This document shows, in pieces, positions 19,741-27,869 of a stretch of DNA of 36,680 bases. Source of the DNA: Acidobacteriota bacterium (GTDB taxonomy: Bacteria; Acidobacteriota; Thermoanaerobaculia; Gp7-AA8); assembly GCA_016184115.1 (NCBI GenBank), contig JACPDH010000064.1:1-36680 (forward strand), given 5' to 3'. The position numbers were made by a program, and so were the translations under genes. Numbering within the stretch: the first letter of the stretch is position 1; each line of letters begins with the position of its first letter. The notes under the pieces are model-generated. The model searched no databases. It was given only the letters and a program-made list of their open reading frames with translations, and was not told where the DNA came from.

Positions 19741-19790
19741 CTAGTGGCTTGTTATGGAGGAATTGGTACTGCCGTTGCGCGCGGCGCGCA
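19741..19790 (+). mobile_element. Single end of the same MITE-like element as at 26376-26655
   Basis: CTAGTGGCTTGTTATGG... AGGAATTGGTAC TGCCGTTGCG aligns with the left terminus at 26376, with only a few mismatches over the first 38 bases, and it also begins with CTAG. No matching right end is found downstream before the methyltransferase start, so this is a truncated or decayed copy. The right boundary given is approximate. It lies in the divergent region between the VTT gene (start 19707) and the methyltransferase gene (start 19850). Confidence 0.75.
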
Positions 19791-26237: not shown

Positions 26238-26351
26238 ATTCCGGGCGCCCACTCGCGCCAGCTCGACCCTTCCGATAGGATGCGTCATTCGCAACGGGTC
26301 GCCTCACGCGACGACGCGTGGCGACTCACTTCGATCGATGGAGATCTCGTC

Positions 26352-27869
26352 ATGGTGCGACGCCTGTTCATCCTTCTAGTGGCCTGTATTGAAGGAATTG
26401 GTACCGCCGTTGCGGACGCCGCGCGGCCAGATGCGAGTCGGCGCGACGTAGGCGATGCTGGGACATCGTCGAGGAGCGACGGCGAAGCAGATGGCCGCGC
26501 GCCGACCGCAACCCGAAGGGCTAGTGGTGGTTGCCGGGGAATCTCGGCGTCTCTCGTCGTCGACGATGCCACCGCATCGCCTCCTCTTCGTTCCTTGATC
26601 TTCCCCGGCAAGCACCACCAGCGGCGGTACCAATTCCTCCAATACAGGCCACTAGTCTTCGCCCTCACACTCGTGGCCCTGGCGGCTGGAGCGGAAGAGC
26701 CACCGGATTCGTCGGTGGAAGAACGCCTTCAGCGTCTCGAGAAAGGGTTCGAAGAGCTGAAGAGCGTGAACGAGACACTGCTCGCCGAGAACGCGAGCCT
26801 GCGCAAGCAGCTCGACCTCGTCGCGAGCGAAGCCAAAACGCCGGTGGTGAGGCCGTCAGGCAAGCCGGAAAAGCTCCAGTTTGGCGGCTTCGTGCAGGTG
26901 CAAGGCGAAGCGGGAGACGCGGTGGCCAGCCGCTTTGCGGACGATGGCGACCGGATCTTCGTTCGCCGCGCGCGCCTTTCCGCCTCGGGGAACTTCGCTC
27001 GACACATCGACTATCGGCTCGAGTCGGAGTTTGCCGGAACTCTCGGCAACTCGAGCGCGATGCGCGCTCAGATGACCGATGGATACGTCACATTCACGCA
27101 CTGGCCCGCTGCGACGATCCGGACAGGGCAGTTCAAGACCCCGTTCGGTTTCGAGCAGCTAGTCTCCGACACGAAGCTCGCGACTCCCGAGCGCTCCGTG
27201 ATCAACGACATGCTGACACCGGGTCGTCAGTTAGGCGTTCAGCTCGCCGGGGACATCGCCGGCAAGCGCCTCAGCTACGCGCTCGGTGCGTTCAACGGCA
27301 ACGCGTCGAACACGAGCTTCAACGACGGCGACAACTTCATGGTCGCAGCCCGGCTCTCCGCGCTTCTTGCAGGCAGCTCCGGCGGATCGAAGAGTCTCCG
27401 GATCGGCGTGAACGGCTACACGTCCGAGGATGAGTCGGTCTCCGTTTCGCCGGCGCTCGGGCTCGATTCCACGCCGGCGACACCGGCGCGCGACAACGTA
27501 TTCGCCGGCACGCGTACCGGCTACGGCATCGACGCGCAGTTCGTCGCCGGGAGGACCGAGATCTGGGCAGAGTACCTCGCAACCGACTTCGAGCCGCTGA
27601 AGGGGCTTCACTCCGACGTTTCGGCATCGGGCTGGTACGCACAGGCGGGCTACTTCGCGCTTCCGGGTACGATCCAGGTCGTCGGCAAGTACGAGTCAAA
27701 CGACCCATCCGACCTTCGCACGGGAGACGACGCCGATGTGTTCTGGCTCGGAGCCAATTGGTTTCTGCAATCTCACGACATCAAACTGCAGTTCTTCTAC
27801 GCGATCGATGATGCCGAGAGCGCGGACGGCTCTGGACGCGTCGTCGCGCGCGTGCAGACGGTTTTCTGA
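26352..27869 (+). CDS. Phosphate-selective porin (OprO/OprP-like) carrying an in-frame MITE insertion in its signal peptide
   Basis: 505 residues as it stands; without the insertion 413, a normal length. ATG at 26352 follows GGAG. Residues 1-9 (MVRRLFILL) are the n-region and half the hydrophobic core of the signal peptide. The core then breaks into element-encoded sequence and resumes as VFALTLVALAAGA|EEPP. A coiled coil follows (VEERLQRLEKGFEELKSVNETLLAENASLRKQLD). The beta-barrel begins LQFGGFVQVQGEAG and includes IFVRRARLSASGNFARHIDYRLESEF, TIRTGQFKTPFGFEQL and a C-terminal SADGSGRVVARVQTVF with terminal Phe, as in Porin_O_P trimers. Likely an outer-membrane channel for phosphate or other anions. 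Whether the present N-terminus still exports is unclear (see findings). Confidence 0.9.
   Translation: MVRRLFILLVACIEGIGTAVADAARPDASRRDVGDAGTSSRSDGEADGRAPTATRRASGGCRGISASLVVDDATASPPLRSLIFPGKHHQRRYQFLQYRPLVFALTLVALAAGAEEPPDSSVEERLQRLEKGFEELKSVNETLLAENASLRKQLDLVASEAKTPVVRPSGKPEKLQFGGFVQVQGEAGDAVASRFADDGDRIFVRRARLSASGNFARHIDYRLESEFAGTLGNSSAMRAQMTDGYVTFTHWPAATIRTGQFKTPFGFEQLVSDTKLATPERSVINDMLTPGRQLGVQLAGDIAGKRLSYALGAFNGNASNTSFNDGDNFMVAARLSALLAGSSGGSKSLRIGVNGYTSEDESVSVSPALGLDSTPATPARDNVFAGTRTGYGIDAQFVAGRTEIWAEYLATDFEPLKGLHSDVSASGWYAQAGYFALPGTIQVVGKYESNDPSDLRTGDDADVFWLGANWFLQSHDIKLQFFYAIDDAESADGSGRVVARVQTVF
26376..26655. mobile_element. MITE-like element (272 bp) with inverted ends and CTAG duplication
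   Basis: CTAG at 26376-26379 and 26652-26655 flanks a 272-bp element (26380-26651). Its ends are inverted repeats of about 34 bp: left TGGCCTGTATTGAAGGAATT then GGTACCGCCGTTG, and right, in reverse, TGGCCTGTATTGGAGGAATT then GGTACCGCCGCTG. A second, nested inverted pair lies inside at 26518-26541 and about 26602-26627 (GTGGTGG...TTGCCGGGGAA). It has no transposase gene. A 4-bp CTAG/YTAR-type target is known for several IS4/IS5/IS701-like transposases, so mobilisation in trans by such an enzyme is inferred. CTAG is palindromic, so a TA duplication with longer ends cannot be excluded. Element plus one duplication is 276 bp, or 92 codons with no stop in the porin frame. Confidence 0.93.

Follow-up and report, generated by a model that had tools for sequence, protein, structure and literature searches.

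The signal-peptide codons of a porin gene are interrupted here by a palindromic element while the reading frame stays unbroken, which raises the questions of how the element came to lie there and whether the porin can still be made and exported. The locus lies in the window, i.e., the whole stretch of 36,680 nucleotides that was analysed, within a draft genome (G000) of 4.42 Mb in 126 contigs that is 97% complete and probably belongs to the class Thermoanaerobaculia of the Acidobacteriota. The insert is probably a non-autonomous MITE, mobilised by an IS630-type transposase, that landed in frame in the signal peptide, with reduced or lost porin as the most likely consequence.

The host gene (26352..27869, forward strand) starts at ATG 26352, comprises 505 codons including the insert and is assigned to the Porin_O_P family by its orthologues and by a match to the profile PF07396 (E=3.4e-30, 106 bits against a cut-off of 20.9; Pfam). 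A GGAG at 26340..26343 (forward strand), with a spacing of 8 nt, is the likely Shine–Dalgarno sequence of this ATG. As the earlier note had claimed, the open reading frame (26280-27869) is stop-free across the whole MITE, and when 276 bp, equal to 92 codons, are taken out in silico, MVRRLFILL is joined to VFALTLVALAAGA and a textbook signal peptide is restored. The right half of the original signal peptide (LVFALTLVALAAGA), identified by frame reading and from the orthologues, now occupies 26652..26691 (forward strand). Three porin orthologues (L051-L053, from G010, G016 and G017) with 40–44% identity were aligned; none of the three carries the insert, the 92 residues are not conserved there, and their signal peptides of 20–25 residues likewise precede the SVEERL-type coiled coil. 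The porin search gave no match in the sole other genome of the genus, which marks the porin as accessory.

Direct reading of the sequence places the CTAG flanks of the insert at 26376-26379 and 26652-26655. The element itself, recognised from its genomic copies and from ends matching IS630 elements, measures 274 bp (26379..26652, forward strand), and the target duplication is the 2-bp TA, with its left copy at 26377..26378 within CTAG 26376-26379 and its right copy at 26653..26654 (both forward strand), as indicated by the sequence and by the flanks of other copies; together they account for the 276 bp. The terminal inverted repeats, 37 nt each including CTAG and 95% complementary, were located by inverted-repeat analysis at 26376..26412 (forward strand; also by the match to the end of L109, an IS630-family element discussed below) and 26619..26655 (reverse strand). 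They enclose two hairpin arms of a core, at 26409..26512 and 26520..26622 (no strand assigned), which are delimited by repeat analysis, folding and core alignment. The earlier description as a 272-bp element with inverted ends of about 34 bp and a duplicated CTAG holds for the flanks, the presence of inverted ends and the total of 276 bp, but its size and duplication are corrected to 274 bp and TA, and the ends belong to a larger fold with two further arms. In the predicted single-strand fold, a stem formed from both ends bears these two long arms (MFE -182 kcal/mol, z = -13.6 against dinucleotide shuffles). At 274 bp the MITE has no coding capacity for a transposase; neither a sigma-70-like promoter nor a terminator was found within or around it, and an Rfam search of it returned nothing at gathering level. 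MIR1437 was rejected as the identity of its RNA, the 30 bits obtained against 168 being a generic-hairpin match. Across the window CTAG is depleted, with 20 occurrences against 121 expected from base composition.

The genomic search for further copies bore out the reading of the insert as MITE-like: the genome holds three more copies that are 94–95% identical to the porin-gene MITE, each with unique flanks, as well as diverged full-length copies (75–78% identity), one-arm copies of ~170 bp and palindromes of ~50 bp. A relict or degenerate left end of the same family also lies in the window at 19741..19779 (forward strand), directly upstream of a UbiE-type methyltransferase gene. Flanks and frames were counted over 31 bounded copies in this genome, whose flanks show TA on both sides, mostly with C before and G after; the outer flank bases are unequal in L008 (ATAG..CTAG), L015 (CTAG..CTAA) and L019 (GTAG..CTAG), which fits a 2-bp TA duplication within a preferred CTAG rather than a 4-bp CTAG duplication. 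Copies L003, L004 and L010 (C53, C70 and C73) stand at or just past what look like stop codons, a position that would be expected were CTAG to persist mainly in the form of TAG stops. All four near copies add 276 bp in total, a multiple of 3, and their first forward frame is stop-free in 4/4, with several frames open in some; because these properties are common to all near copies, the open frame was inherited with the element and not selected at the porin. It follows that insertions into genes keep the downstream frame, and an appreciable fraction of orientations and frames allows read-through. In-frame entry into a gene is rare in this genome, and the propensity for it suggested earlier was not borne out: a frame with a coding signature, judged heuristically from the codon-position composition of real genes and not by gene calling, is interrupted by 1 of the 31 bounded copies, namely the porin copy.

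The link to IS630 comes from the ends and the target. The same class contains L109, a complete IS630-family element of 1110 bp with CTAGTGGCCTGTAATGG at both ends, which agree with the MITE ends at 24–25 of the first 30 positions and at 13/14 at the tip; its left end and the right end in the window have 25/30 positions in common. L110, another complete IS630-family element of the class, has ends agreeing at 12–13/14 at the tip, and those of L101, also of the IS630 family, match more distantly; the transposase of L101, which served as the query for the element search, matches NF033545 (transpos_IS630, E=1e-76; NCBIfam) and is ~69–70% identical to that of L109. The title of Tenzen and Ohtsubo 1991, as cited in PMC2170065, gives the TA in 5'-CTAG-3' as the IS630 target preference. 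The element thus shares with IS630-type MITEs the ends of an autonomous element, the TA duplication with CTAG preference, and multiple copies (4 near-identical and many diverged) without a transposase of their own. The core had no match inside the IS elements tested, where the terminal ~30 bp alone match L109 and L113, which means that the MITE did not arise simply by internal deletion from L109-type elements, an origin not required of all MITEs; one core-like match lies just outside the IS of L114, which bears type B-like ends.

No transposase able to act in trans was found in the 97%-complete draft by PF13358 or IS630 matches, nor did terminal-inverted-repeat pairs at IS spacing reveal an autonomous partner, so mobilisation in trans is proposed from the relatives; an IS630 transposase may be absent from this assembled genome only through incompleteness. 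One PF01609 transposase of the genome was rejected as partner because its ends differ from those of the MITE. Plasmids and phages yielded no relatives of the MITE, viral contigs gave no exact match to the end pattern, and a pattern scan of GTDB returned one named relative.

In the proposed course of events, an IS630-family transposase acting in trans would have excised a MITE by its inverted ends, and the MITE would have been pasted into the TA of a CTAG that by chance encodes Leu-Val in the hydrophobic core of the signal peptide; 276 bp and one stop-free forward frame would then leave the porin frame open by inheritance. A very stable mRNA hairpin that starts ~25 nt past the first base of the start codon would lower the yield of porin, and of the native signal peptide there would remain a short, weak signal and, far from it, an internal hydrophobic segment, so that porin expression or export would be reduced. 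A recent insertion is supported; private substitutions in the porin copy affect up to 5 of 276 positions, at most 1.8%.

The most serious alternative is that the porin still works, either because the left end and the native n-region form a new cleavable signal (MVRRLFILLVACIEGIGTAVADA) or because a downstream segment (QYRPLVFALTLVALAAGA) acts as the signal through translation or processing, the mature protein being unchanged in both cases. The hydropathy of both candidate N-termini is comparable to that of the orthologue signals, and an RPE insert leaves a rickettsial Gmk active (PMC2229807). The porin frame downstream of the MITE is also intact over ~405 codons, but a simple neutral model gives a chance of 12–56% that the gene would be free of stops and frameshifts without selection, so this intact frame does not discriminate a live from a dead porin. 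Against the first route, the h-region of the left-end N-terminus consists of 9 uncharged residues and is ended by the charged residue Glu, and the native hydrophobic core, now ~80 residues downstream, would be a second membrane segment that, coming after 80 exported linker residues, would tend to arrest transfer. Against the second, the TTG seen earlier as an alternative start is indeed in frame (26595..26597, forward strand; from sequence and fold), but it lies within arm 2, buried in the hairpin, and has a pyrimidine-rich upstream region and no Shine–Dalgarno sequence. The lack of conservation of the gene within its genus also counts against a porin in use. Of the two rescue routes read from the sequence earlier, what survives is that the same end, encoding LQYRPL, serves as an n-region elsewhere; a working porin is conceivable but doubtful, and a reduced or lost porin remains the preferred reading.

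The other signal-peptide cases bear on this point. At G000:C49:4192-4211 (in L080:4181-4260), a 20-bp relict of the MITE right end lies in frame three codons past a TTG start, which itself overlaps the stop of the upstream gene (MKTNLQYRPLVLLVCALFAQLSSAAALEE); we take this upstream gene to be purS, a label given from the sequence as read, without profile search. The N-terminus of the downstream gene is MKTNLQYRPL-VLLVCALFAQLSSAA, in which the relict forms the n-region of the predicted signal peptide. The same-genus orthologue has MKTRVAALLALVTLATGASAATLEE with the same overlapping TTG, an overlap legible in G012 and G011 as well. Of 18 family genomes, 17 have the gene, and its pairwise dN and dS against G001 are 0.17 and 0.94. 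The relict end is very probably part of a working signal peptide in this gene, and the peptide LQYRPL from the MITE right end is compatible with export, so that the purS-adjacent relict is a stronger lead than the porin for an element end serving in a signal peptide. The third case concerns a small secreted protein rich in Cys: a 162-bp relative (L163, G009:C10:107375-107540) lies immediately past its signal peptide and truncates the protein by an in-frame stop; frame keeping is therefore no rule for the element family.

These three signal-peptide-associated cases might suggest that the MITE has specialised in supplying export signals and that selection has favoured its landing in signal peptides. 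This is very improbable: the remaining bounded copies are not in signal peptides, the G009 copy brings a stop, and survival bias suffices as an explanation, since Leu-Val is a possible reading of CTAG and insertions at the N-terminus are the easiest to tolerate. An assembly artefact, in which a repeat was wrongly joined into the porin gene, would fit a draft of 126 contigs, as repeats of such size often break contigs and many G009 contigs end within a copy, but the porin copy bears its own substitutions, and joining its flanks at CTAG gives, precisely and without a shift of frame, a perfect signal peptide, which makes such an error even less credible. An ancient protein segment instead of mobile DNA has nothing but the open frame in its favour and is refuted by the copies of the same DNA at intergenic sites and by the insert-free orthologues, leaving it a negligible chance.

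The core of the element extends beyond this family of ends. Eighteen two-arm elements align over the entire core with a mean column identity of 78%, and 62 of 96 predicted pairs changed on both sides with pairing kept, a count that kinship may inflate; arm-to-arm repair without function could be the source of this covariation. At least five terminal types are found with the same core, namely IS630-like A, B and D, IS5-like E, and C; in G000 such cores with varied ends lie on C73, C118, C31, C61 and others (L010, L013-L021, L024-L027, L030), an element end is also present on a contig of G016 from the same family, and cores with yet other ends occur in other families of Thermoanaerobaculia. End types A (three subtypes), B and D start with CTAGTG and resemble IS630 ends. 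Type E ends (GGAACCTCTGAACAAG) match an end beside a transposase in G009 that is presumably of IS5 type, judging from the sequence as read and the CTAG-flanked end, Pfam giving DDE_Tnp_1 only; in G009 the partner search found this one transposase with an end next to CTAG, at a contig edge, and not its other end. For type C ends (GTACTGCTCCCCGGAAATA), the search for partners yielded just MITEs and ~48-bp palindromes.

The core is tentatively seen as a modular passenger that switches ends among unrelated transposase families (IS630-type, IS5-type and a third) and thus uses several transposases, its IS630-type ends (LQYRPL) having been recruited at least once as the positive region of the signal peptide that a conserved gene encodes; this account as a whole is possible and falls somewhat short of even chances. 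The association of one core with the ends of at least two unrelated transposon families is more unusual than the porin insertion, and no report of a core common to IS630-type and IS5-type ends was found in the open-access literature. In L007 and L030 (G000:C65 and C34), type A and type D elements abut with one CTAG in common, a CTAG made at the edge of earlier elements serving later copies. On nine contigs of G009 (C2, C36, C52, C57, C65, C66, C70, C81 and C87) the end of a copy lies ~90–145 bp from the contig start, which suggests that the assembly broke inside nearly identical copies of 166 bp and that the element underwent a recent burst. Some short palindromes, at least, look like deletion products, and palindromes as precursors were rejected because remnants of the core or of mixed ends are present in L082 and L084; C49:176-4210 as a 4-kb composite element was likewise rejected, as it contains ordinary genes and two unrelated insertions.

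The locus is a case, open to testing, in which a palindromic mobile element has entered a signal peptide and left the frame unbroken, and for which the purS-adjacent gene, with a trimmed end apparently in use, is a natural control; the family also prompts one to ask how a structured element that is not autonomous can change its transposase, a question relevant to the survival of MITEs beyond their parent insertion sequences. The suggestion that an in-frame mobile element supplying export signals would be unusual is not supported by the literature. Delihas described in-frame fusions of bacterial MITEs to genes, some of them forming predicted signal peptides (PMC2759123, PMC2229807), and Ogata and colleagues described Rickettsia palindromic elements (RPEs) in protein genes (reviewed in PMC10969869); given the published fusions in Rickettsia and in Yersinia YPO1552, the porin insertion is a new instance of a precedented event. 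With IS630-family MITEs of the Tc1/mariner-IS630 superfamily, the element shares the TA duplication, CTAG target, IS630 ends, non-coding nature, high copy number and strong hairpin, but it is larger (274 bp) and has two extra covarying arms that are also found with other ends. Like RPEs it is a palindromic repeat in frame within a protein gene, whereas RPEs recur in many genes and here 1/31 bounded copies does so, with a TA duplication and IS630 ends. In YPAL/RU-2 of Yersinia (YPO1552) the MITE starts the gene, while in the porin gene it interrupts a signal peptide that was already there. Correia/NEMIS elements similarly have terminal TA and form a long dsRNA stem in transcripts that likely affects mRNA stability, but differ in sequence and hosts. 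MITEPsy1 of Pseudomonas syringae, which is IS5-like, has the same CTAG target and ends like type E (..CCTCTGAA..) (PMC3189936), but it measures 100 bp and is without the two-arm core.
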